Both the position numbers and the translations under genes were made by a program. This document shows, one piece after another, positions 31,802 through 55,732 of a stretch of 64,000 bases of DNA; within the stretch, counting starts at the first letter, position 1, and the number at the start of each line of letters is the position of its first letter. Location: the NCBI RefSeq assembly GCF_014644555.1, contig NZ_BMKX01000005.1, positions 62,001-126,000 on the forward strand, given 5' to 3'. Under the pieces are notes generated by a model. It worked only from the letters and a program-made list of their open reading frames with translations. It ran no database searches and had not been told where the DNA came from. This DNA comes from Glutamicibacter ardleyensis. GTDB taxonomy: Bacteria; Actinomycetota; Actinomycetes; Actinomycetales; Micrococcaceae.

Positions 31802-32152
31802 TTAGACCCAGAGCACGGCGATCGCGATATTGATCAGAGCCATGCCGCCTGTGGCGTGAGCAAGTCCGGTAGGAACTTCCTCGCCGGCCTTGATCTTCTT
31901 GCGACCCAAGAATGCAGCAACGGCGATGATGATCGCGATAACGACCTTAACGCCGATCTTGACGTGGTTCACATCCCCATCGTTAGCCTCTGCCATACCC
32001 ACCAAAGCTAGGCCGGTGACGAGCTGGGCAATCGCGCCATACCACTGCCAAACGTTGACGGTTGGAGTCTTGAAGTTAGCCAGCCAGCCGCCAAAGATCG
32101 CTGCTGCGCCGAGAATATGCAGAAAAACTAGAAAGAGAGTTAAGAAGGTCAT
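31802..32152 (-). CDS. Small integral membrane protein, 116 residues
   Basis: Four hydrophobic segments (about 3-24, 37-53, 66-82 and 98-115) make up nearly the whole protein. It begins MTFLTLFLVFLHILGAAAIFGGW, a pattern shared by small actinobacterial membrane proteins of unknown function. A short soluble loop KKIKAGEEVPTG precedes the last helix. The ATG at 32152 has TAGGCT (32164-32159) ending 6 bases upstream on the minus strand, again the leaderless arrangement. No function can be assigned. Confidence 0.75.
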   Translation of the reverse strand: MTFLTLFLVFLHILGAAAIFGGWLANFKTPTVNVWQWYGAIAQLVTGLALVGMAEANDGDVNHVKIGVKVVIAIIIAVAAFLGRKKIKAGEEVPTGLAHATGGMALINIAIAVLWV

Positions 32153-32164: not shown

Positions 32165-32191
32165 ATTGATTTTCGACGAATTGTAGAAACG

Positions 32192-42988: not shown

Positions 42989-42994
42989 TAGAAT
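42989..42994 (+). promoter_or_regulatory. -10 box of parE
   Basis: TAGAAT stands so that transcription should start near 43001. The in-frame ATG at 42993 overlaps this box and cannot be in the mRNA, which supports GTG 43041 as the start. Confidence 0.55.
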
Positions 42995-43040
42995 GGTACT
43001 AGTTCATTATTTTCCCGCGTCAGTAGGAGATTGCAGCCCC

Positions 43041-45149
43041 GTGGCCTCAACCGATAATTACAACGCCCGTCATCTCTCCGTTCTCGAGGGTCTCGAAGCG
43101 GTACGCAAGCGACCCGGCATGTATATCGGTTCTACCGATTCCCGCGGTCTTATGCACTGCCTTTGGGAGATTATTGATAACTCGGTTGATGAAGCGCTCG
43201 GTGGCTTCGGCCAGGCCATAAACGTCATCCTGCATTCAGATGGATCCGTCGAAGTACATGACGATGGTCGTGGCATTCCCGTGGACGTGGAGCCTAAGAC
43301 AGGGCTAAGCGGCTTGGAAGTTGTATTCACTAAGTTGCACGCAGGTGGCAAATTTGGTGGCGGTTCCTACAGCGCTTCTGGCGGTCTGCACGGCGTGGGA
43401 GCCTCCGTGGTAAATGCTCTGTCAGCGCGTTTGGACGTTGAAGTGGATCGTGGCGGAAAAACCTATTCTTTGCAGTTCCGCCGTGGTGAACCAGGAAAGT
43501 TTAGCGACCGTGGCAAGCCAAAGTCGGACGCGCCATTTACCGCCCACGAAAAAGCAACCACTCCGGAAGTCATCGGTAAAGCAAAGCGGGGGGTTACTGG
43601 TACTCGAATTCGTTATTGGGCGGATGACCACATCTTCACCCCTGACGCAAAGTTTTCCTACGAGGAACTTCAGAACCGTGCGCGTCAAACCTCATTCCTG
43701 GTTCCTGGCCTACGTATTACGTTGCGTGATGATCGTGGCCTGCCCGGAACAGAAGGCGCCGAAGGCCCCTACGAAGAGGTATTTCAACATGACGGTGGAA
43801 TCAGTGAATTCGTTGAATACCTAAGCAGTGATTCTGCAGTCACCGATGTCTGGCGCGTGCATGGCAGTGGCTCCTTCCATGAGAAGGTTCCAGTAATCGA
43901 TGAAAATGGCCGCAGCCATATGCAAGACGTCCAGCGAGTTTGCGAAGTTGACGTAGCGTTGCGCTGGGGGATCGGCTATGACACCTCGATGCGTAGCTTT
44001 GTAAATATCATTGCCACTCCCAAGGGTGGAACGCACATTGCAGGGTTTGAACAGGCATTACTGAAATCATTCCGTAAGAACATCGAGTCCAATGCTCGCA
44101 AGCTCAAGTTCGGGCAAAAAGACAAAATCGAAAAAGACGACATCATGGCCGGCCTGACAGCGGTATTAACCGTGCGCCTTGCTGAACCACAATTTGAGGG
44201 GCAGACCAAGGAAATCCTTGGCACGTCGCAAGTACGCCAGATCGTGACCAAGGTTGTCGAAAAGGCGCTCAATGAACGTCTTTCATCGACTAAACGCGGT
44301 GAAAAGGCCGAGGCGGCCACGTTGCTTGAAAAGGTTGTCAACGAGATGAAGTCTCGTATTTCAGCCCGAATGCATAAGGAGACCCAGCGGCGTAAAACTG
44401 CGCTCGAGTCCTCTTCGCTTCCTACTAAGCTACTTGATTGTCGTAGCAAAGAAGTTGGACGCTCGGAATTATTTATCGTTGAGGGCGATAGCGCGTTGGG
44501 TACCGCACGTGTAGCGCGTTCTAGTGAATTCCAAGCCCTACTTCCTATCCGAGGCAAGATTCTCAATGTGCAGAAAGCCTCCATATCGGACATGCTCTCT
44601 AACGTAGAGTGTGCGGCAATGATTCAGGTCATCGGCGCAGGATCAGGTCGTAGCTTCGATATTGAACAAGCGCGATACGGCAAGATCATCCTGATGACAG
44701 ATGCTGACGTGGACGGCGCGCATATTCGAACGTTACTCTTGACGCTGTTCTATCGATATATGCGTCCCATGATTGAGCATGGACGGGTATACGCTGCTGT
44801 GCCTCCACTGCACAGGATCGAAGTAATCAACGCCGGCTCTAAGGCCAACGAGGTTGTTTACACCTACTCGGAGGCCGAGATGACGCGTCTGCTGTCGAAG
44901 CTGGAAACCGAGGGGAAGAAGTATAAAGAGCCAATTCAGCGGTACAAGGGATTGGGCGAGATGGACGCAGATCAGTTGGCAGAAACAACAATGGACCCAC
45001 GCCATCGTATGCTCCGCCGTGTGGGGATCGAACATGCCCAGGCGGCAGAGGAAGTCTTCGACCTGCTAATGGGTTCAGACGTCGCGCCACGAAAGAATTT
45101 CATTATCGCGGGCGCTGAGAATCTTGAAAGAGACCGTATCGACGTCTAA
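43041..45149 (+). CDS. parE: DNA topoisomerase IV subunit B
   Basis: This is the ATPase subunit of a type IIA topoisomerase, 702 residues from the GTG at 43041 (AGGAGA at 43025-43030). The GHKL ATPase domain has LEGLEAVRKRPGMYIGST, EIIDNSVDEAL and DDGRGIPVD. The TOPRIM domain has EGDSALGTARVARSSEFQALLP and LMTDADVDGAHIRTLLL. The C-terminus has PIQRYKGLGEMDADQLAETTMDP. Its partner ParC is at 52999-55632. It is called ParE rather than GyrB because of the genomic setting and the ParC-like partner; GyrB would be expected near dnaA. Confidence 0.9.
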   Translation: MASTDNYNARHLSVLEGLEAVRKRPGMYIGSTDSRGLMHCLWEIIDNSVDEALGGFGQAINVILHSDGSVEVHDDGRGIPVDVEPKTGLSGLEVVFTKLHAGGKFGGGSYSASGGLHGVGASVVNALSARLDVEVDRGGKTYSLQFRRGEPGKFSDRGKPKSDAPFTAHEKATTPEVIGKAKRGVTGTRIRYWADDHIFTPDAKFSYEELQNRARQTSFLVPGLRITLRDDRGLPGTEGAEGPYEEVFQHDGGISEFVEYLSSDSAVTDVWRVHGSGSFHEKVPVIDENGRSHMQDVQRVCEVDVALRWGIGYDTSMRSFVNIIATPKGGTHIAGFEQALLKSFRKNIESNARKLKFGQKDKIEKDDIMAGLTAVLTVRLAEPQFEGQTKEILGTSQVRQIVTKVVEKALNERLSSTKRGEKAEAATLLEKVVNEMKSRISARMHKETQRRKTALESSSLPTKLLDCRSKEVGRSELFIVEGDSALGTARVARSSEFQALLPIRGKILNVQKASISDMLSNVECAAMIQVIGAGSGRSFDIEQARYGKIILMTDADVDGAHIRTLLLTLFYRYMRPMIEHGRVYAAVPPLHRIEVINAGSKANEVVYTYSEAEMTRLLSKLETEGKKYKEPIQRYKGLGEMDADQLAETTMDPRHRMLRRVGIEHAQAAEEVFDLLMGSDVAPRKNFIIAGAENLERDRIDV

Positions 45150-45259: not shown

Positions 45260-46225
45260 TTACCAGGAGAGCAGACGCGGGGCGATAAGAAGAATCGTCG
45301 GGCACACCAGCAACAGGACAGTACATGAGAGAACCACGAAGTTTTGGAACCCACTCAACGGTGCCACTGGAGACAGCAGACGCTGCAAACGACGTGACGT
45401 GACCTCTCCACCCGGCATGCCTACAATTTCACCTGCTAATCCCTTAGCGTCGTCCTGACTGGTCTTCGCTGGTGTAATAGAGGAGGCTACCCCGACGATA
45501 GCTCTAAGAAGTACCGGACGGGTAACGACCTCTAGTGCTTTATCATCAGCGAGCATTTCAATTAACTGGCGCACTGCTTCCAGGGACAAGCGAGAAGTCG
45601 GCAACCACGGTAACGCCTCATGCCACGCGGTGAACGCCAAGATGAGAAAATCATGACGTTGATCTAGGTGTGAACTCTCGTGGGCAATGACACCACGCTG
45701 CTCTTCGGCGGAAAGCTGGGTTAGTAGCCCTCGCGATAGCACCGTAACGGATCCATTAAACCCAGGTACACAATAAGCCACGGGCAAATCATGGTCGAGG
45801 ACCAGTGTGTTAGGTCGTGTCTGTGAAGGGTTGCTCAGTAGCCGTAACAGCTGGCGGTGTTTGGCTCGTTGTCTTGTGGTGCGCCATGAAGCCCGCACTA
45901 GGGTCAACACTAGGTGGAACGCAAACAAGAACGCAGTGCTGAGCGCAAACAGGTGGATCACCCCGGGGGAGTTCACGCTAGGATCCCCGGTGACCAAAAG
46001 CCAACCGGCATGGAGAGCGGAAATGAGGTCATTGCCTAAGGGGGTTAGTCCCCAAACCAGCATTGACCCAATCATGGATAAGCCGCCGCCCAAGGCGATA
46101 GCTTGCCACAGCAGGACAGCAGCGACAGGAGCGCGTGCCGTCCATTTTGCTTTCGACAAAGCCAACGGCGTCGGCCACGCCAAGACGATAGCCAACGCCG
46201 CTAGGAAATATGAGGTGAGAAGCAC
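45260..46225 (-). CDS. M56 family membrane metalloprotease (BlaR1/MecR1-like)
   Basis: This 321-residue membrane protein has hydrophobic segments at about 1-20, 32-62, 88-111 and 295-318. The zinc-protease motif AHESSHLDQRHD (HExxH at 182-186) and the downstream QLIEMLADDKALE with the third ligand Glu (about 223) are intact. Unlike staphylococcal BlaR1 it has no extracellular penicillin-binding sensor domain; only a C-terminal membrane anchor follows the protease. It lies 23 bases downstream of a BlaI-family repressor gene, the standard pair in which the protease cleaves the repressor. The signal it senses is unknown. The divergent cyd operon suggests a respiratory or redox cue (inference). 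Confidence 0.9.
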   Translation of the reverse strand: MLLTSYFLAALAIVLAWPTPLALSKAKWTARAPVAAVLLWQAIALGGGLSMIGSMLVWGLTPLGNDLISALHAGWLLVTGDPSVNSPGVIHLFALSTAFLFAFHLVLTLVRASWRTTRQRAKHRQLLRLLSNPSQTRPNTLVLDHDLPVAYCVPGFNGSVTVLSRGLLTQLSAEEQRGVIAHESSHLDQRHDFLILAFTAWHEALPWLPTSRLSLEAVRQLIEMLADDKALEVVTRPVLLRAIVGVASSITPAKTSQDDAKGLAGEIVGMPGGEVTSRRLQRLLSPVAPLSGFQNFVVLSCTVLLLVCPTILLIAPRLLSW

Positions 46226-46248: not shown

Positions 46249-46620
46249 TTAGACAGTCTTTACAGAATCCAAGATAGCACGTAGGGACACTGCTTCTTCA
46301 GCCGAGATTCCTCCGATAAATCGGGCAAGGACGGCTTCGCGATCTTGGGCGGTGCCCAAAGCATCATTTAGCAGTCCCACAGTATGGTCCTCACGGGAAG
46401 AGGACGCGGTATAACGATGCGGACGAGTAGAGCGTTCCCGCGCTACGAGTCCCTTCTTCTCCAGTCGCGCCAACACGGTTAATACCGTGGTTACTGCGAG
46501 TTCTTTCGCATCAGTACCGCATGCAGCCAGGGCATCACGAAGATCATTAGCGGTAAGCGGTTCTGCGGAATCCCACAGTAGGTCCATGACGGAGCGTTCC
46601 AGATCGCCAAGGCTGGCCAC
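46249..46620 (-). CDS. BlaI/MecI/CopY family transcriptional repressor
   Basis: This 123-residue winged-helix repressor begins LGDLERSVMDLLWDSAEPLTANDLRDAL, with the recognition helix region AVTTVLTVLARLEKKGLV. The dimerisation domain includes REAVLARFIGGISAEE. The Arg-Phe at about 100-101 lies where BlaI is cleaved by BlaR1 between Asn101 and Phe102, so proteolytic control is plausible. The start is GTG with GAGG 9 bases upstream. It is in an operon with the M56 protease and divergent from cydA. Three matching 19-bp inverted repeats lie in the intergenic region. Confidence 0.92.
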   Translation of the reverse strand: MASLGDLERSVMDLLWDSAEPLTANDLRDALAACGTDAKELAVTTVLTVLARLEKKGLVARERSTRPHRYTASSSREDHTVGLLNDALGTAQDREAVLARFIGGISAEEAVSLRAILDSVKTV

Positions 46621-46702
46621 CAGGTCTTACCTCACTTGCTTTAGTGCTGATGCAGTGTTGTCGCACGTTATAAGGAGTGAAAACAATCTGCTTGGATATT
46701 TC

Positions 46703-46708
46703 ATTGTA
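46703..46708 (-). promoter_or_regulatory. -10 box of the blaI-like gene
   Basis: On the minus strand TACAAT lies 17 bases downstream of a -35-like TAGAAA (46731-46726), and that -35 lies within operator O1. Confidence 0.5.
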
Positions 46709-46725
46709 TAGGCGTTCGGCCGATA

Positions 46726-46744
46726 TTTCTACATGACGTAAAAG
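46726..46744. promoter_or_regulatory. Operator O1 (BlaI-type)
   Basis: TTTCTACATGACGTAAAAG is an imperfect inverted repeat. It covers the -35 position of the blaI promoter, as expected for autorepression. Confidence 0.55.
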
Positions 46745-46913
46745 TATCGGGTGATTTGCGGGTTTGTCAGTAACCGCATTTAGTCACTCAGAAGTAAGAG
46801 CCGCATTGTGCTGACTTGGGTTTTTTTATTTCAGAAACTGCAGCCTGTGTCAATGCTGGGAATCTAGATTTTTTAGTGTGGCGACTGATGGTGAATAAGC
46901 CGAATCGAGCCGA

Positions 46914-46932
46914 TTTCTACAAGCTGTCGAAA
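46914..46932. promoter_or_regulatory. Operator O2 (BlaI-type)
   Basis: TTTCTACAAGCTGTCGAAA has 8-base arms with one mismatch. It covers the -35 region of the cydA promoter. Confidence 0.6.
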
Positions 46933-46938
46933 TTGGTC

Positions 46939-46944
46939 TATAGT
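46939..46944 (+). promoter_or_regulatory. -10 box of cydA
   Basis: TATAGT predicts a transcription start near 46951, about 60 bases before the cydA ATG. Confidence 0.5.
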
Positions 46945-46957
46945 GACCGTAAGAACT

Positions 46958-46976
46958 TTTCTACGCAACGTAGAAA
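46958..46976. promoter_or_regulatory. Operator O3 (BlaI-type)
   Basis: TTTCTACGCAACGTAGAAA is a perfect 8-base inverted repeat with a 3-base centre. It lies just downstream of the predicted cydA transcription start. Its centre is 44 bases from that of O2, about four helical turns. Confidence 0.65.
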
Positions 46977-47012
46977 TAGATGTGCTGCGAACTCGTGACA
47001 AATGAGGAATCC

Positions 47013-48599
47013 ATGGATGTACTAGAGATTGCTCGGTGGCAATTTGGGATCACCACCGTTTACCACTTCTTGATGGTGCCACTAACCATTGGGCTGGGAC
47101 TGACCGTAGCAGTGATGCAAACCGTTTGGCATCGAACAGGCAACGAACAGTGGCTAAGAATGACCAAGTTCTGGGGCAAGCTGTTCCTCATCAACTTCAT
47201 TATGGGAGTGGCCACCGGTATTGTCCAAGAATTCCAATTTGGCATGGCGTGGAGCGAATATAGCCGATACGTCGGTGATGTCTTCGGAGCACCCTTGGCA
47301 ATGGAGGCACTACTAGCGTTCTTCGTCGAATCCACTTTCCTTGGCCTATGGATCTTCGGGTGGAAAAAGCTACCTCGACGCATCCATTTGGCCACCATCT
47401 GGTGCGCGTCGCTGGCAGCTATCCTCTCGGCATACTTCATTTTGGTTGCCAATTCGTGGATGCAGCACCCAGTAGGCACCGAACTGATCAATGGTCGTGC
47501 GGTGATGACGGATGCCTGGGCCGTATTTACGAACAACACCGCACTGGTCACCTTCCCGCATACAATCTTCGGTGCCTTTGCCGTCGCCGGAGGGTTTCTC
47601 CTCGGGATTTCCTGGTTCCATCTATACCGACGCCGTAAAGAAGGTATCGACACGATCGACGCGAATGGGCGTGTAGTGGTCGGCGAAGATCTGTCCAAGG
47701 GCCGAGTGCGCGACCGTACCGACCATAAGGTCTGGCTTACCTCGTTGCGTATTGGCGCGGTCATCGCCACAATCTCGTTCTTCGGTGTCGCATTGTCTGG
47801 CCATGAGCAGGCCAAACTGATGTTTGAACAGCAACCAATGAAAATGGCTGCCGCCGAAGCAGCCTGTCACGACGGCACCGGATTCTCGGTCCTGACCTTG
47901 GGGAAGCTGGATACCGAAGGGGCCACCACCTGTGACGACGTCGTGGCAGTTTTTGAATTACCTGGCCTGCTGTCCTTCTTAGCCAATGGCGACTTTGAGA
48001 CGCCGGTCAAAGGCGTGAACACACTCATTCCCGAGTATCAGGAAAAATATGGCAGTCATTACCCAGATGACCCAGCATTCGGACAATACGCGGGAGAAGA
48101 AATCAGCTACCTGCCGGTTATGGAGGTTACCTACTGGGGATTCCGTCTGATGATCACCCTCGGCGGGTTGTCCGCAGTGGCTGCTGCGCTCGCATTGTGG
48201 ATCACCCGAAAAGGTACCGTTCCACAAAGTAAGTGGCTATCGCGTCTGGTACTTCTTGGCATTGCCGCACCATTTGGAGCGAACTCCGCAGGCTGGATTT
48301 TCACCGAAATGGGGCGACAGCCATTTACCGTGGCCCCGAACCCGCAAATGGGTGGAGTGGACCAAGTATTCATGTATACCGCGGCATCGGTTTCACCAAC
48401 GGTGAGCGCCGGGGAGATGCTCTTCTCCCTGATCACCTTGACCTTGGTATATGGGGTGCTCCTTGTTGTTGAGCTGGTGCTACTTACCCGTTATATCCGC
48501 GGTGGAACCGGATCTGCCATGCCCGAACTACTAGAACCCGAGCAAACCTCGGGCAAGGACCCCAGCGACGACGGCGACGTGCTCGCCTTCGCATATTAG
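47013..48599 (+). CDS. cydA: Cytochrome bd ubiquinol/menaquinol oxidase subunit I
   Basis: CydA is the quinol-oxidising subunit of the high-affinity bd oxidase, with nine or so membrane helices. The start LEIARWQFGITTVYHFLMVPLTIGL has the haem ligand His at about residue 18. GHEQAKLMFEQQPMKMAAAEA, the short quinol loop region, and EMGRQPFTVAPN (GRQP motif, about residue 433) are typical. The length is 528 residues. ATG 47013 with GAGGA upstream gives the standard N-terminus; the open frame extends 11 codons further up. It heads the operon cydA-cydB-cydDC and is divergent from the BlaI/M56 pair. Confidence 0.95.
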   Translation: MDVLEIARWQFGITTVYHFLMVPLTIGLGLTVAVMQTVWHRTGNEQWLRMTKFWGKLFLINFIMGVATGIVQEFQFGMAWSEYSRYVGDVFGAPLAMEALLAFFVESTFLGLWIFGWKKLPRRIHLATIWCASLAAILSAYFILVANSWMQHPVGTELINGRAVMTDAWAVFTNNTALVTFPHTIFGAFAVAGGFLLGISWFHLYRRRKEGIDTIDANGRVVVGEDLSKGRVRDRTDHKVWLTSLRIGAVIATISFFGVALSGHEQAKLMFEQQPMKMAAAEAACHDGTGFSVLTLGKLDTEGATTCDDVVAVFELPGLLSFLANGDFETPVKGVNTLIPEYQEKYGSHYPDDPAFGQYAGEEISYLPVMEVTYWGFRLMITLGGLSAVAAALALWITRKGTVPQSKWLSRLVLLGIAAPFGANSAGWIFTEMGRQPFTVAPNPQMGGVDQVFMYTAASVSPTVSAGEMLFSLITLTLVYGVLLVVELVLLTRYIRGGTGSAMPELLEPEQTSGKDPSDDGDVLAFAY

Positions 48600-48613: not shown

Positions 48614-49639
48614 ATGGATTGGCTTCCAACTCTCTGGTTTATTCTCATCGCACTACTATGGACCGGTTATCTCTTTCTCGAGGGCTTCGACCTGGGTATC
48701 GGCATGCAAATCGGGCTGGGACGGGGCGGAGAGAAACACAAACGTGTACTGCTCAACACCATCGGTCCAGTCTGGGACGGAAATGAAGTCTGGTTGCTGA
48801 CTGCAGGTGGTGCCACCTTCGCAGCCTTCCCCTACTGGTACGCCTCGCTGTTCTCCGCTCTGTACATTCCACTAACTTTGGTGTTGGTGGCACTAATCTT
48901 CCGTGCGGTAGCCATCGAATACCGTGGCAAGGCACAAAATGCTACAACACGTGGGCTCTGGGATTTGGCTTTGGGCTGGGGATCGCTGATCGCCGCGTTC
49001 GGGGTGGGCGCGATGCTTGCCTTGACCACCTTAGGGCTGCCTCTAAACGAAAACGGTGACCGGGTAGGTGGCCCATTCGCGTGGTTCACTTGGCATGCCG
49101 TGCTCGGTGGTGTCGCGGTCGTGGCATTTAGCTGGATACACTCCGTGGCTTTCCTACGATTAAAAACCGAAGGTCCGATACGTGTGAGCTCGGGTCAGCG
49201 GTTTATTCGATGGATGCCATGGTGTGTTGTGCCATTGTTGCTGTGGTCTGCAGTCGTGGTGCTGGCAGGTACATCGCTTGCCGCCTGGACGCTGCTCGTC
49301 TTGGCAGTGGTTGCTGCGTTCTTCGCTTGGTTTAGCGCCCGTGCAGGCCACGAGGGCCGCTCATTTATTGCCTTGGGCATCATGCTCGTCGGAGCTGTCG
49401 CTGCGATCTTCGTTGCGGCCTTCCCTGTAGTGCTCCCTTCAACCATCAACTCGACATTTGATCTGACCATATATAACGCGTCGAGTTCCCCATACACGCT
49501 GAAACTGATGAGCATCGTCGCTGCATTCGGCGTGCCGCTGGTCCTTGCATACCAGTCATGGAGCTACTGGGTCTTTCGTAAGCGCATCGGTGAGAAGCAT
49601 ATTCCCGAAGACCATCTCGTGACCTCAGCCGTGAAGTAG
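48614..49639 (+). CDS. cydB: Cytochrome bd oxidase subunit II
   Basis: CydB is the second membrane subunit of bd oxidase, with 341 residues and about eight or nine hydrophobic helices. The family start TLWFILIALLWTGYLFLEGFDLG and the following RVLLNTIGPVWDGNEVWLLTAGGA (conserved charged residues in the first loop) are clear. The C-terminal segments YNASSSPYTLKLMSIVA and VLAYQSWSYWVFRKRI also match. It begins 14 bases after cydA and is followed by the cydDC fusion after 27 bases. Confidence 0.96.
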   Translation: MDWLPTLWFILIALLWTGYLFLEGFDLGIGMQIGLGRGGEKHKRVLLNTIGPVWDGNEVWLLTAGGATFAAFPYWYASLFSALYIPLTLVLVALIFRAVAIEYRGKAQNATTRGLWDLALGWGSLIAAFGVGAMLALTTLGLPLNENGDRVGGPFAWFTWHAVLGGVAVVAFSWIHSVAFLRLKTEGPIRVSSGQRFIRWMPWCVVPLLLWSAVVVLAGTSLAAWTLLVLAVVAAFFAWFSARAGHEGRSFIALGIMLVGAVAAIFVAAFPVVLPSTINSTFDLTIYNASSSPYTLKLMSIVAAFGVPLVLAYQSWSYWVFRKRIGEKHIPEDHLVTSAVK

Positions 49640-49666: not shown

Positions 49667-52600
49667 ATGTCTGCGCCACGCTTTTTGCCACGTGCTCTTC
49701 TCAAACGCCAACAAATCGCTTTCCTGGCGCTTTTTTCGGCTCTCAAATCCATCGGGTTAATTCTTGTAGCCTATGCGCTAGCTACATGGATTGCACAGAT
49801 GTCGGTGGGTCAAGAATACTCACCGACGTTACTGTGGATGGCCTTGGGCGGGGCAGTGCTTCGTACGGTCGGGGTCTGGGCACTGAATGCTGGGGCTCGA
49901 CGTGTAGGAGCCGGCGCTAAAGAAAAGATGCGTTCTAATCTTGTCGCCACCGTGGCGGCCCGTCCCGGAATCGTTGGACATCCGAGCCATGACCAGACGG
50001 TGGCGCAGACTGCCACACTTGCCAGCCACGGTGTGGAAAAGCTCGACGACTACTTCACCAAATTCATCCCAGCGCTCATTGGCGCCGCGCTAATCCCGTT
50101 GCTCTTAGGCATATATATTCTGAGCATTGACTGGCTCAGCGCGCTGATCTTGCTGTTGACGATTCCCCTGATACCGATATTCATGGCGCTCATTGGGATG
50201 CACACACAAGACACCATTGCACAGTCCCAAAACAAACTTGATGCGCTGGCTAATCAGCTCTTCGAACTTGCCCAAGGGCTACCCGCGTTGTTAGGACTAG
50301 GCCGAGCACAATCGCAGGGGCACGCCATCAGGCAGGTCAGCGAACGCTACCGGGTGGCGACCATGGCCAACCTGAAAACAGTATTCATGTCCAGCTTCTG
50401 GCTCGAGTTGATTTCTACGTTGTCCGTCGCAGTACTCGCGGTAGTAATCGGCGTGCGACTGGTCGGCGGGAATATGGATTTGGCCGCCGGACTGACTATC
50501 TTGATTCTTGCTCCGGAACTGTTCGTTGCGCTTCGCGAGGTGGGTTCGGCCTACCATGCGGCAGACGATGGGTTAGCAGCCTTTGCCCGGTACGAAAAAC
50601 AGATCCAAGCGACACCCAAAAAGCAGCTACAAAAAGCAGTCTGCACGGCCCCCGCTGGGCATGTCCTAGAAATTGAAAACCTGAGCCTGCAATATCAGCA
50701 CACAAACTATATTTATCAGGATTTCAATCTCACCTTGCAGGCCGGTGAACGAAAGATTCTGAGCAATGCCAGTGGTACCGGAAAAACGAGCCTACTGAAA
50801 CTTATTGCCGAAACCCACACCAGTAACAATGAATTTGCCAGCGAGCTGGTTAGCGGCACAATTCACGTCTGCGCAGAACTCGCAATGATCAGTCAGCATC
50901 CCCGGTTCAATGAGGCGACCGGTGCCGCGCAACTCGCACAAGATGTTCCTCAGGCCTCCACCTCGTTCGTACAATCCATGGCGACTGAACTAAACCTCCT
51001 TGAGATGTTGCCACGGTCCATCGGGGAGTACTCGCCCGGTGAGCTACGCAGGTTAGAAGTTCTGCGTGCGCTAGTACGGGTACACAGCGTTCCCGAATGT
51101 AATCTCTTACTGGCAGATGAACCCACCGCTCATCTAGACGAAGACAATGCCGACAGTGTGCGGCGGCTGCTTACCGAAGTACCAGCGCGGTGCGCAATAC
51201 TCATTGCCAGCCATGATCCGCTAATCGACCACAGCATTCCGCGGCAGAGCGTGCACGACGTTAGCTCCACAGCGGACATCACTAGCCAGCAATTCGCCGC
51301 TCCGACCGACGATGATTTGCAAGCTGCCGCACTCAATCCGCGTGATTGGAACCCACGCCGCGAGGTTGTTGGACGCTACACTTCGGCCCGCAAGGCCCTT
51401 TGCTACGGGGTGCTGGCCATACTCTGCGCGGTGGCGCTCGCCGGATTGAGCGGATGGTTGATCGTCGAGTCCAGCTACCAGCCTGCCATCTTGCATCTGA
51501 CCGTTGCCTTCGTGATGGTTCGAACTCTAGGTATCGGCCGAGCGGTCTTTAGATACCTGGAACAACTGGCCATCCACGACGCAGTACTCAGCTACGCCGG
51601 AGCTCTGCGTGAAAAATTGTGGAATGCCATGGTCGCTAACCCCACGCAATGGGGAGTGATGAGCCGGTCCTCACTGGTTCTGCGCTACCTGCTGGCCGAA
51701 GTTGATGAGCTACGAGACGGCATCGCCCGGGTACTCTTTCCACCCCTGCAGGCAACGTTGGTCTGGGTTACCGCCACCGTGGTGCTGTATCTCATTCAGA
51801 CAGAATTCGGATACCTCGCCCTGACCGCAGGGCTACTATTGCTTTTCCCCGTCCGGTGGCTGGTGAAAACCGTGGAGGGACGCCACCTGGCTATGCAACT
51901 GCAGCATCGCTTACAGGTGAACCAACTGGTTCTCTCGATCTTGCGACATAAAGAAGCCCTACGCGCCTTCGAAGCGTTGGACAGGCTGCTACACAAGCTC
52001 ACCGGAGCCGAGCAACACAACACCGAACGAATTCGACGCCACGCCTATGGGCAGGGCACCGCGCCGGCCCTAGCAACATTGATAACAGTCCTGCTGTCGG
52101 TGGTCCTAGTTCTAGTCTCAGACGTAAGCGCTTCGTACACGGCCCTGGCGGTCTTATTGGCTCTCTCCCTAGGCGAGCCGGCGTCCAACGCCCTGAACGC
52201 GGTTCAACAAGGTCGGGCGCTGAACGAGCTGACCGGGCAACTCGCCCGTAGGGGGATCGACCAACCCGAACAACTTACCGAAGCCGCTAACAACGACGAG
52301 CCAAATTTCACCGTCCACGGGTATCGGCTCAAGGATTTAGCACTAGGCTACGTACCGGGTGTCGCGGTGCTCTCCGGTCTGGATGCCGAGATTCGGCCCG
52401 GTCAATGGACCGCACTGACCGGATCCTCGGGGTCGGGAAAATCAACACTCATGACAGCACTGCTTGGCGCGCTACCTGCCAGCGCCGGAACGCTAGAGGC
52501 AATTGACGAGCACGGGAACTACCGGCCAATGCGACAAGGTTCCATTGGCTCGGTTGCCTGGTGTCCACAAGAGGCGCACCTCTTTGACTCGACACTGCGT

Positions 52601-53002
52601 CGAAACCTCAACCTTGCGGTGCCCACCGACCTGGCAGCCTCTGATGAACAGCTCATCGAAGTGTTGCACCATGTAGGGCTTGGTCGCTGGTATGCCGATG
52701 AACCCGATGGATTAGATACCCGCATCGGTAGCGGGGGACACCGGCTTTCCGGAGGACAACGCTGCAAACTGGCGGTGGCTCGCGCTCTAATTGGGGGACA
52801 CCACACGATCCTGCTCGATGAACCCACCGCACACCTCGGCGTGGATGAAAGCACAGAGCTAATCCACACGCTCCGTGCAGCGCTCGCCGGTCGGACGGTC
52901 GTACTGATCACCCATGACACGAGACTTGCACAAATGTGTGAGGGTTCGATCAATTTGACCGAACCCTCACACCAGCTGACTAACTTATTGCCAAGGAGTT
53001 AG
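49667..53002 (+). CDS. cydDC: Fused CydD-CydC thiol-exporting ABC transporter
   Basis: CydDC exports cysteine or glutathione-type thiols and is needed for bd oxidase assembly. One 1111-residue chain joins two half-transporters, each with a membrane domain (about 10-300 and 578-860) and an ATPase domain. The second ATPase is normal: GSSGSGKST (about 918-926), LSGGQ (about 1026), [10 protein letters not shown]. The first is degenerate: [10 protein letters not shown] lacks the first Walker A glycine and the signature is YSPGE (455-459), while [12 protein letters not shown] and ASHD remain. The last codons contain a strong hairpin, and the stop overlaps the stop of convergent parC by 4 bases. Such fusions occur in related actinobacteria. 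Confidence 0.93.
52936..52972. terminator. Hairpin inside the 3' end of cydDC, near the parC stop
   Basis: GTGTGAGGGTTCG (52936-52948) pairs perfectly with CGAACCCTCACAC (52960-52972). The hairpin lies within the cydDC coding sequence, 27 bases downstream of the parC stop on the minus strand. It could terminate parC transcripts. Confidence 0.5.
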
Positions 53003-55632
53003 AGCAGTACACCGCCGTCAGAGAACGGCAACGTGTCCTCACCGGGATGCAGCTCAGGCTTTGCGCGCGGCTTAGTCACTGGTGCGACGCTAGGGCTAGG
53101 TGGGGTTGGTTCCTCGGGCAGGCCTTGGGCCGCAGCGCCGGCGACTGGTGATTGGCGAACAAGGGTGCCACCAAGAATGTTGATCGTTTGCGCCAACGGG
53201 GCACCGGTCCCGTCTCGCTTGGCGAACTCGGTGGGCAAGGCACGAACCACCCCGGCGGTTGAGCTTGCGCGGGCTGGACCATGGCCGGCGTAACCCAATA
53301 CCAAGTAGTCCTCGCCCTTGGCGAAGCGGTGTGCCCTGACGCCTGCGGTAGCACGCCCCTTGGCCGGGAACTCGCTAAAGAGACTGATCTTCACCGACTG
53401 GCCAGAAGTGCCGGGTAAGGTTTGTGAGCCGGCCGCGATGGTGGCCACCACGGCGTCATCATTTGCCTCGCCCACCACACCGAAGTGAATGACCTGATCC
53501 TCTGCGGAGAGTTTGATGCCCGCCATACCCGACGCGGTGCGTCCCTGCGGGCGAACTGCACTGGTAGCAAAACGTAGAAGTTGTGCCTGCCGGGTGACAA
53601 AAACCAGCTCATCATTGTCACCGGCTGGTGCTGCAGCAACGACCGAATCGCCCTCCTTCAACGTGATGACCTCAAATTCATCGCGGTTCAGCGGATAGTC
53701 CGGAGTAACTCGCTTGACCACACCGTTCTTAGTGCCCAAGGCGAAGACTTGATTCAATGGCAGCAACGCCACCACTCGTTCACGCTTTTCGAGTTTGAGG
53801 AACTCATCAACCGGAACACCATTTGCCAGCTGCGGGAATCCATGAGTTTCGGGCAGCACGGGGACATCGATCAAGGAGATTCGAATCATTCGCCCATGAG
53901 TCGTCAACGCACCAATTTCACCGCGTGCGGTGGAAGGCACTTGTGATGAAAGTACGTCATGTTTGATTCGGGCGGAGGCGAAGTCAAGGGGTGCTCGGTC
54001 ATGGGTGCGGGCGATTTGCCCGGTAGCCGAGAGCAAAACGAAGCAAGGAGAATCTGAGACTTCCAAAGCGAGCTTCGCTGTTTTCCCGGTGCCTACCGCC
54101 TCTGGAAGAGCGGTGCCCTTCAACGGTTCCAAGGCGGAGGACTTGTTCAGCTTGGTACGTCGTGGAGTGCCGAAGGTCTCTGCTATCTGGCCGAGTTCCT
54201 CGGAGACAAGCGCTCGCAGGATCTTGTCGTCGCCCAGAATTTTACGTAATTCTTCGATTTCGGCGCGTAGCTGTTCGGCTTCGGCCTCTAGCTCGATGCG
54301 TGAGTATTTAGTTAGTTGACGCAGACGCAGTTCAAGGATGTGGCTTGCTTGGGGCTCGCTTAGATCAAAGACTGTCATCAGTCGTTCACGGGCTTCGGCG
54401 GTCTGCTCTGAGGAGCGGATAATCGCGATCACGTCATCAATATCGACAATCGCAACCAGCAAACCTTCAACCAGGTGCAAACGATCTTCGCGTTTAGCCA
54501 GGCGGTGCGCGGTACGTCGGCGCACCACGTCGATGCGGTGATCTACATATACGCTCAACAATTCGCGCAGACCCAAGGTGCGTGGCTGCCCCTCAACCAA
54601 CGTCACATTGTTGATGCCGAAGGAGTCTTCCAGTGGCGTGTATTTGTACAAAGCCGCCAACACGGCGTTCGGATTAAAACCGTTCTTCAACTCAATAACG
54701 AGTTTTAGTCCGTGATGACGATCGGTGAGGTCAACGACGTCGGAGACGCCGACAATTTTCTTGTTGTTAACGCCGTCTTTGATCTTTTCAATGACCTTCT
54801 CCGGGCCCACCGTGTACGGCAGTTCGGTGAAGACCAATGCTGACTTGCGTGCGGAAATCTGTTCCAAGGCAACGGTGGCACGGGTACGGAACGCGCCACG
54901 GCCGGTACGGTAGGCATCCTTCACCCCGTCGAGCCCCACGATCGTTCCGCCGGAGGGCAGATCCGGGCCTGGAACGATTTTCATGAGTTCTTCGACCGTA
55001 GCATCCGGATTTTCGATCAAATGCTGAGTTGCCGCAATCACTTCACCCAGATTATGCGGTGCCATATTTGTGGCCATGCCCACCGCGATACCGGTAGTGC
55101 CGTTGACCAAAAGGTTCGGGAATGCGGCGGGAAGCACCTCGGGCTGCATGAACTGATTGTCATAGTTCGGGACGAAGTTCACCACGTCTTCGTCGAGGTT
55201 GGCGGTCATGGCTACCGCGGAAGCAGCCAGTCGGGCCTCGGTATAACGTGCCGCTGCCGGGCCATCATCAAGGGAGCCGAAATTTCCGTGGCCGTCAATC
55301 AGTGGCAAACGCAGTGAAAAGTCTTGGGACAGTCGGACCATGGCATCATAGATCGCAGTGTCGCCGTGTGGGTGTAGTTTACCCATCACTTCACCGACCA
55401 CGCGAGCGGACTTTACATGGCCTTTTTCTGGGCGCAAACCCATTTGAGACATTTGGAAAAGTATCCGTCGTTGCACCGGCTTCAAACCATCTCGGGCATC
55501 AGGGAGCGCGCGTGAGTAGATCACCGAGTAGGCGTACTCCAAGAAGGAGGATTCCATTTCGCTGGTGACATCAATATCGACGATGTTCTCGACGAAATCC
55601 TCTGGGATCTCAGGGGTTTTTTTGCGAGCCAT
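52999..55632 (-). CDS. parC: DNA topoisomerase IV subunit A
   Basis: This is the breakage-reunion subunit of topoisomerase IV, 877 residues. The N-terminus [28 protein letters not shown], the quinolone-region [17 protein letters not shown] and the active tyrosine in [10 protein letters not shown] are present. A coiled coil (about 440-480) and a six-bladed C-terminal beta-propeller (from about 520) follow. The propeller lacks a clear GyrA-box (QRRGGKG), which supports ParC over GyrA. Start choice is uncertain: ATG 55632 gives [13 protein letters not shown], while the frame opens at GTG 55665 with another ATG at 55653. It pairs with ParE at 43041-45149. Confidence 0.92.
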
Positions 55633-55732
55633 TACTCTGTCTACGCCCTTCATCTGCTGCTTCACGGCCTAAAATGTTCTACTTTCGTGTTGCGTCTGGG
55701 CGCAAACACGAAAGCGCGACTATTCTAAGCCT

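Follow-up and report, generated by a model that had tools for sequence, protein, structure and literature searches.

A BlaI-type repressor and an M56-type protease beside the cytochrome bd genes of Glutamicibacter: predicted regulators of respiration

The window studied here, a stretch of 64 kb from the genome of the soil bacterium Glutamicibacter ardleyensis, contains genes for a BlaI/MecI-type repressor and a membrane metalloprotease that are divergent to the cytochrome bd operon cydABDC across a gap of 392 bp holding three inverted repeats, O1, O2 and O3 (Table 1). The nearest relative of the repressor with a solved structure is 2g9w (E 1.5e-37), labelled 'conserved hypothetical protein', which we take to be a mycobacterial BlaI; Staphylococcus aureus MecI and BlaI come next. 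All 32 aligned proteins have a phenylalanine at F101, and this residue corresponds to that of the NF pair of MecI, where MecI is cut by its protease. Type II topoisomerase genes flank the blaI-cyd cluster (42993-45149, gyrB/parE type, and 52999-55665, gyrA/parC type), and both persist in three relatives without cyd at this place (L084, L097 and L117).

Table 1. Genes, operators and predicted promoters of the blaI-cyd locus and of a fourth operator in the same 64-kb window.
Feature	Position	Strand	Description
Small membrane protein	31802..32152	-	116 aa; start 18 nt from the fourth operator; without Pfam match
Fourth operator	32171..32189		TTTCGACGAATTGTAGAAA; 1 mismatch
M56-type membrane metalloprotease	45260..46225	-	321 aa; without extracellular sensor domain (Pfam and predicted structure)
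blaI	46249..46620	-	BlaI/MecI-type winged-helix repressor, 123 aa; PF03965, 72.2 bits (cut-off 22.6)
Predicted blaI promoter	46703..46731	-	TAGAAA-17-TACAAT; consensus scan only
O1	46726-46744		Inverted repeat TTTCTACATGACGTAAAAG; over predicted blaI -35; present in 18/18 Glutamicibacter genomes
O2	46914-46932		Inverted repeat TTTCTACAAGCTGTCGAAA; over predicted cydA -35; present in 18/18 Glutamicibacter genomes
Predicted cydA promoter	46916..46944	+	TCTACA-17-TATAGT; consensus scan only
O3	46958-46976		TTTCTACGCAACGTAGAAA, perfect 8-bp arms; in the cydA leader; present in 18/18 Glutamicibacter genomes
cydA	47013..48599	+	bd oxidase subunit I, 528 aa; PF01654, E 7.5e-151
cydB	48614..49639	+	bd oxidase subunit II; PF02322, E 3.6e-92
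cydDC	49667..53002	+	One fused ABC exporter ORF, 1111 aa; two ABC_tran and two ABC_membrane stretches

Judged by its predicted fold, the protease appears to be M56-type, rather than a proven M56 member: its best Pfam score is for PF01435 (M48; 34.5 bits, cut-off 20.3), and that for PF05569 (M56), 28.8, lies just under the cut-off of 31. The residues H182, E183 and H186 of the HExxH motif (182-186) and the distal E223 are invariant in 40 of 40 aligned proteins. The structural model (pLDDT 92.1, pTM 0.87), which ends in a terminal helix at 292-319, has S. aureus BlaR1 (8exs) as its best match, with a Z of 11.7, modest for a helical protein, an rmsd of 5.9 over 217 residues and low Foldseek TM-scores (0.36). 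This match is confined to residues 3-290 of the 556 of BlaR1, corresponding to its membrane and protease part. By the predicted structure and the extent of the match, the extracellular penicillin-binding sensor domain is absent from the 321-residue protein, as the first-pass annotation had rightly maintained, and the protease is therefore not a BlaR1 beta-lactam receptor. Residues C152 (conserved in at least 90% of the alignment) and W40-Q41 (invariant) could form part of a sensor.

The three repeats have exactly the coordinates and sequences first given for them. Three sites within two mismatches of TTTCTAC-N5-GTAGAAA occur in the gap, as compared with a mean of 0.002 and a maximum of 1 in 5000 base shuffles of it, a number far beyond chance. 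A consensus promoter scan places the blaI -35 (TAGAAA, 46731-46726) inside O1, with a -10 TACAAT at 46708-46703, and the cydA -35 (TCTACA, 46916-46921) inside O2, with a -10 TATAGT at 46939-46944. It agrees with the first placement of O1 and O2 over the two -35 elements, and is only suggestive because it returns three promoter-like sites in 431 bp as compared with 0.8 in shuffles. Some columns of the predicted cydA -10 region are conserved in 17 or more of the 18 Glutamicibacter genomes. From this -10, transcription of cydA would start at about 46951, with O3 just downstream. The longest cydA ORF begins at ATG 46980; the protein start MDVLEIARWQFG corresponds to ATG 47013, which is preceded by GAGGA and is the start kept in relatives. 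O3 is thus a leader element that precedes the coding sequence, and its placement inside cydA is rejected. The initial statement that O3 follows the predicted cydA start is right for the transcription start and wrong for the coding start.

Loss of the repeats where the genes adjoin had been named with the first-pass annotation as an outcome that would refute it, and the comparison speaks for the annotation. All 18 Glutamicibacter genomes searched encode a close BlaI orthologue and carry O1, O2 and O3 (at most two mismatches) in the same order, in gaps of 273-420 bp. Majority identity over the 18 genomes reaches 0.97 in the operator arms (42 columns), 0.67 in the spacers (15) and 0.61 in the rest of the gap (335); conserved arms within a variable gap are, in such an alignment, the pattern expected of protein-binding sites. 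Each of 52 further family genomes (from 58 loci, six genomes being represented twice) also has a site before blaI, with the perfect core TTCTAC-N5-GTAGAA in 50 and one core mismatch in L108 and L110. The set of three shared repeats described at the outset is characteristic of Glutamicibacter, and other family genomes have one to three. Outside Glutamicibacter, cydA divergently adjoins blaI in 46 of these 52 genomes, and in the remaining six the site before blaI persists though cydA is elsewhere. The named loci examined in Citricoccus, Tersicoccus, Arthrobacter luteolus, Galactobacter and Micrococcus have blaI-M56 divergent to cydA and at least one perfect core, as do, outside the family, three Microbacterium species and two Schumannella. 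Two Nesterenkonia loci have a one-mismatch site and no cydA beside blaI, and L286 and L289 have neither cydA beside blaI nor an operator site. The same divergent arrangement is found in further families of the order and, beyond it, in further orders of the class. The outer bases are those of TACTAC-N5-GTAGTA in L391 and L392 (other orders) and in L163 and L166 (same order), and TTCTAC in L393, L311, L314 and L315; in the last three, CydA is only 26% identical to that of G. ardleyensis. A cydA divergent from blaI is absent in L164 and in 11 of 16 class-level loci, one of which (L398) has cydA on the strand of blaI, and several show no operator site.

Sites of the same type occur away from the blaI-cydA gap. 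In the 3.94-Mb genome of G. ardleyensis, four sites deviate from the pattern by no more than one mismatch, O2 and O3 included, versus one for the reversed pattern, and the fourth operator is the only further such site in the window; with up to three mismatches, the genome has 85 versus 167 for the reversed control, so that only near-perfect sites are meaningful, and its other sites with two to three mismatches are near or below control level. In the 18 Glutamicibacter genomes, 61 sites with at most one mismatch are found versus 7 for the control. Of these, 32 lie away from blaI and cydA, and 31 of the 32 stand just before hmp, a PPOX-fold flavoprotein gene, the small membrane protein gene or hemE; L080 is one of the 32 with no respiratory assignment. 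The target set varies within the genus, with sites before hmp in 13 of 18 genomes, PPOX in 11, the small membrane protein in 6 and hemE in 1. The hmp site of G. ardleyensis itself, which has a perfect core and two outer mismatches, adds a fourteenth genome of the genus with an hmp site. Its genome also has a perfect-core site before a copC-containing operon. A site at -136 before ctaE-qcrC, with one core mismatch, is present in 18 of 18 genus genomes; identity is 0.99 at the site and 0.80 over the upstream region, and the site is only suggestive because this whole region is conserved. At hmp promoters (L148 and relatives), the BlaI operator is followed by a second palindrome, which in our assessment resembles an NsrR box, and an Rrf2-type gene adjoins upstream; both features suggest a two-signal control of NO defence.

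The fourth operator of the window precedes a gene whose orthologues have a site with at most one mismatch upstream in 6 of 18 Glutamicibacter genomes, and its relatives in G042, G048 and G036 also have a perfect-core operator. One relative of the 116-residue membrane protein (L217) has a weak Tmemb_14 match (E 0.0042, below cut-off). Human TMEM14C is linked to porphyrin transport, so that, with this weak match, a haem link of the small protein is conceivable. An uncharacterised family of small membrane proteins has operators upstream in several genera (L220 2118-2468, L167, L173, L203 and L205), and in G029 a perfect-core site lies between an isocitrate lyase gene and a small membrane protein gene (L322).

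In 41 family genomes, the perfect core is found at 188 sites versus 20 for the reversed pattern. The 75 classified sites, which are all those of 13 fully listed genomes, comprise 31 at blaI or cydA (one of the 75, G051 C82, being assigned to blaI from coordinates alone) and 44 elsewhere. Forty of the 44 are within about 120 nt of gene families found more than once: coproheme decarboxylase (chdC; 10), hmp (6), a small transmembrane protein (5), cytochrome c maturation (5), copper (4), an ABC transporter on the SufR side (3), PPOX (3), P0001 (2) and truncated haemoglobin (2). Several genomes share a genus and the ten chdC or five maturation matches are thus not all independent; some of the census queries came from the operator loci themselves, so that the evidence is in the recurrence and not in single matches. 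The cytochrome c maturation sites stand before resA or a phosphatase gene preceding it, followed in L201 by a CcdA-type protein. The other four of the 44 precede qcrC, an operon with DUF1775 (L212), a Crp-type gene and a MarR-type gene at 297 nt; two of the 44 (L207 and L223) have no respiratory assignment. The names truncated haemoglobin (without Pfam match in L210), SufR side and MarR are our own readings of the sequences.

In three more genomes (G025, G029 and G030), all 29 sites were classified, with 5 at blaI or cydA and 24 elsewhere. Sites before families of the predicted regulon amount to 6 of 7 in G025, 11 of 14 in G029 and 2 of 3 in G030, counts that include far sites (242 nt for sdhC, and 192 and 130 nt for ctaC and chdC, respectively, of G029); five of the 24 are without respiratory assignment (L320, L322, L329/L351, L343 and L350). 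G029, which has no cydA beside blaI, has 15 sites, including those at ctaC, ctaB, SURF1, chdC, two copC operons, PPOX, resA, the ABC transporter and sdhC. In G025, sites precede ctaC, hemE, chdC and the ATP synthase (atp) operon, the latter with a perfect core. None of the 16 reversed-pattern loci checked among the 20 precedes any operator-linked gene family, and 14 of the 16 are inside ORFs of at least 100 aa.

What the genome sequences show directly is the sites and how well they are conserved, the genes that follow them and a co-occurrence with BlaI. Genomes with a BlaI orthologue (E ≤1e-15) have sites in 36 of 36 cases and those without in 0 of 5, the five being fewer than five independent cases because they come from three genera. 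The cydA genes of four BlaI-less genomes (G052, G074, G114 and G019) have no site with up to two mismatches in 500 bp upstream, a count that leaves out a fragment with a ninth part of cydA (L337, G049). Where cydA is away from blaI, in G021 and G051, it carries two perfect cores, which argues for action in trans. In genus g12, three cydA genes (G028, G057 and G102) have a perfect core about 120 nt upstream, and blaI was not found beside them; BlaI matches are weak in G028 and G057. In G102, a perfect core stands before cydA with no BlaI match at E 1e-15, and this is a case against the rule that sites follow BlaI.

Collectively, we favour, with a probability of about 0.8, the reading in which BlaI represses a respiration regulon and is inactivated by the M56-type protease, the pair governing respiratory-chain assembly and the bd by-pass. 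From what is known of the family, BlaI would bind these sites, repress the genes behind them and be cleaved by its partner. Dimers of BlaI would occupy the TTCTAC-N5-GTAGAA palindromes. On O1, the repressor would cover the blaI -35, so that the pair represses itself; on O2, it would cover the cydA -35, exclude polymerase and keep the bd oxidase operon repressed; and on O3, just after the cydA start point, it would form a second block, acting on polymerase escape. Self-repression of both repressor and protease would make the switch self-resetting. Further predicted targets in G. ardleyensis are hmp, the PPOX flavoprotein, the small membrane protein and the copC-type copper operon, perhaps also ctaE-qcrC; in related genera, they would include genes of haem synthesis and cytochrome c maturation, those of aa3 subunits and assembly factors, and ATP synthase. 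The inducing cue would, as a best guess, be an impairment of haem-copper respiration; the protease would then be switched on and cut BlaI near the conserved F101, with joint release of the bd by-pass, of NO scavenging and of the genes that rebuild the haem-copper chain. The target set fits one need, namely electron flow when the haem-copper chain fails plus the rebuilding of that chain. Comparative sequence supports the first-pass annotation in its proposal that BlaI controls itself, the protease and cydABDC, and the respiratory inhibition it put forward as a cue is plausible. Its choice of cyd as a target stands; its regulon was too narrow, since haem, cytochrome c, aa3, ATP synthase, copper and NO-defence genes also have operators.

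The chief alternative to a cue of haem-copper impairment is copper itself, in a switch like that of Synechocystis PetRP, which we regard as rather unlikely. Copper would then activate the protease, BlaI, acting on its targets as both repressor and activator, would be degraded in the presence of copper, and the cell would exchange copper-containing for copper-free respiration. The copC-type and DUF1775 genes behind operators are compatible with this, and PetRP is a BlaI/BlaR-type pair with a proposed copper-dependent protease (PMC7896320). However, the presence of hmp, truncated haemoglobin and haem genes behind operators suggests a cue of wider scope, and O2 and O3 are at repressor positions of cydA. 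Under simple derepression by copper, the copper-free oxidase would be made just when copper is abundant.

A local switch that serves cytochrome bd alone would account for the divergent blaI-M56/cydA arrangement that recurs through the family and in other families and orders. It is very improbable: such operators recur upstream of many further respiratory genes, and the six genomes that lack cydA next to blaI still have the blaI site. A switch for cyd only was thus rejected. BlaI-type repressors bind TAC...GTA sites, and the geometry of the palindromes fits such binding. That another regulator occupies them and that they merely flank blaI is likewise a slight prospect; in favour of it, BlaI binding is predicted from sequence, the hmp promoters also carry what we would call an NsrR-like box, and G102 keeps its cydA site with no BlaI match at E 1e-15, but the sites track the BlaI orthologue in the numbers given above and stay before blaI where cydA does not adjoin. 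A beta-lactam-responsive bla system placed next to cyd by chance, to which the family names and the description of M. tuberculosis BlaI as a blaC repressor in two papers (PMC12565901 and PMC5473688) would point, is the least credible, as the protease has no sensor domain and no beta-lactamase was seen among the genes identified behind operators. Beta-lactam sensing was rejected for these same two reasons.

How the choice between the haem-copper chain and cytochrome bd is made in many Actinobacteria is only partly known. For a respiratory regulon under BlaI, as favoured here, the closest known system is the M. tuberculosis pair BlaI-BlaR (Rv1846c-Rv1845c), to which the nearest solved relative of the present repressor, 2g9w, presumably belongs. 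The S. aureus systems are likened through the repressor structures (1sd6, 1okr and 1sd4 for BlaI/MecI), the protease and transmembrane fold of BlaR1/MecR1 (8exs) and the MecI cut-site phenylalanine, which aligns with F101. In contrast to BlaR1/MecR1, the protease has no penicillin-binding sensor domain, and the predicted targets are respiratory rather than beta-lactamase or PBP2a. BlaI of M. tuberculosis is reported to bind the cytochrome bd and ATP synthase promoters, and its protease partner also lacks a sensor domain (PMC5473688); a 2025 paper reports repression of the first gene of the atp operon (PMC12565901). Here, operator sites stand before cydA in the window and, in another genome (G025), before the atp operon; given the published reports, control of cyd by a BlaI is not new in principle. 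Unlike in M. tuberculosis, the pair here is divergent beside cydABDC with three operators of core TTCTAC-N5-GTAGAA, and the predicted regulon is larger, with genes for haem synthesis, cytochrome c maturation, aa3 subunits, copper and NO defence. Synechocystis PetR-PetP also joins a BlaI-type factor to a BlaR-type protease, in a swap of copper and haem electron-transfer proteins; it differs in its photosynthetic carriers, four-protein regulon and copper cue, with no oxidase operon (PMC7896320). Among the literature matches listed, from a search that mostly excluded subscription papers, neither a conserved divergent blaI-M56/cyd unit with operators nor a haem, cytochrome c, copper and NO regulon of BlaI is described.

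A small repressor-protease pair, of a type usually grouped with beta-lactam resistance, has here an operator that is conserved and easily recognised, and its predicted regulon spans both oxidases and their cofactors; this would help to explain why respiratory targets have been reported for mycobacterial BlaI. It is tempting to go further, tentatively and with the odds somewhat against it, and to propose that BlaI-M56 is a class-wide controller of respiratory biogenesis in Actinomycetes, whose protease would read the haem-copper state directly and couple the bd by-pass to haem, cytochrome c, copper, oxidase assembly and NO defence. If so, the beta-lactamase systems would be a later, specialised offshoot of such a switch. 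Glutamicibacter, Arthrobacter and Nesterenkonia are non-pathogenic models for finding the cue and the membrane sensor. Finally, the genome of G. ardleyensis has a second, divergent BlaI-family gene (C1:470645-470977; L149 4143-4541). The ORFs adjoining it are, by our reading, resolvase- and transposase-like, and they suggest a mobile element with a BlaI-type regulator of its own.
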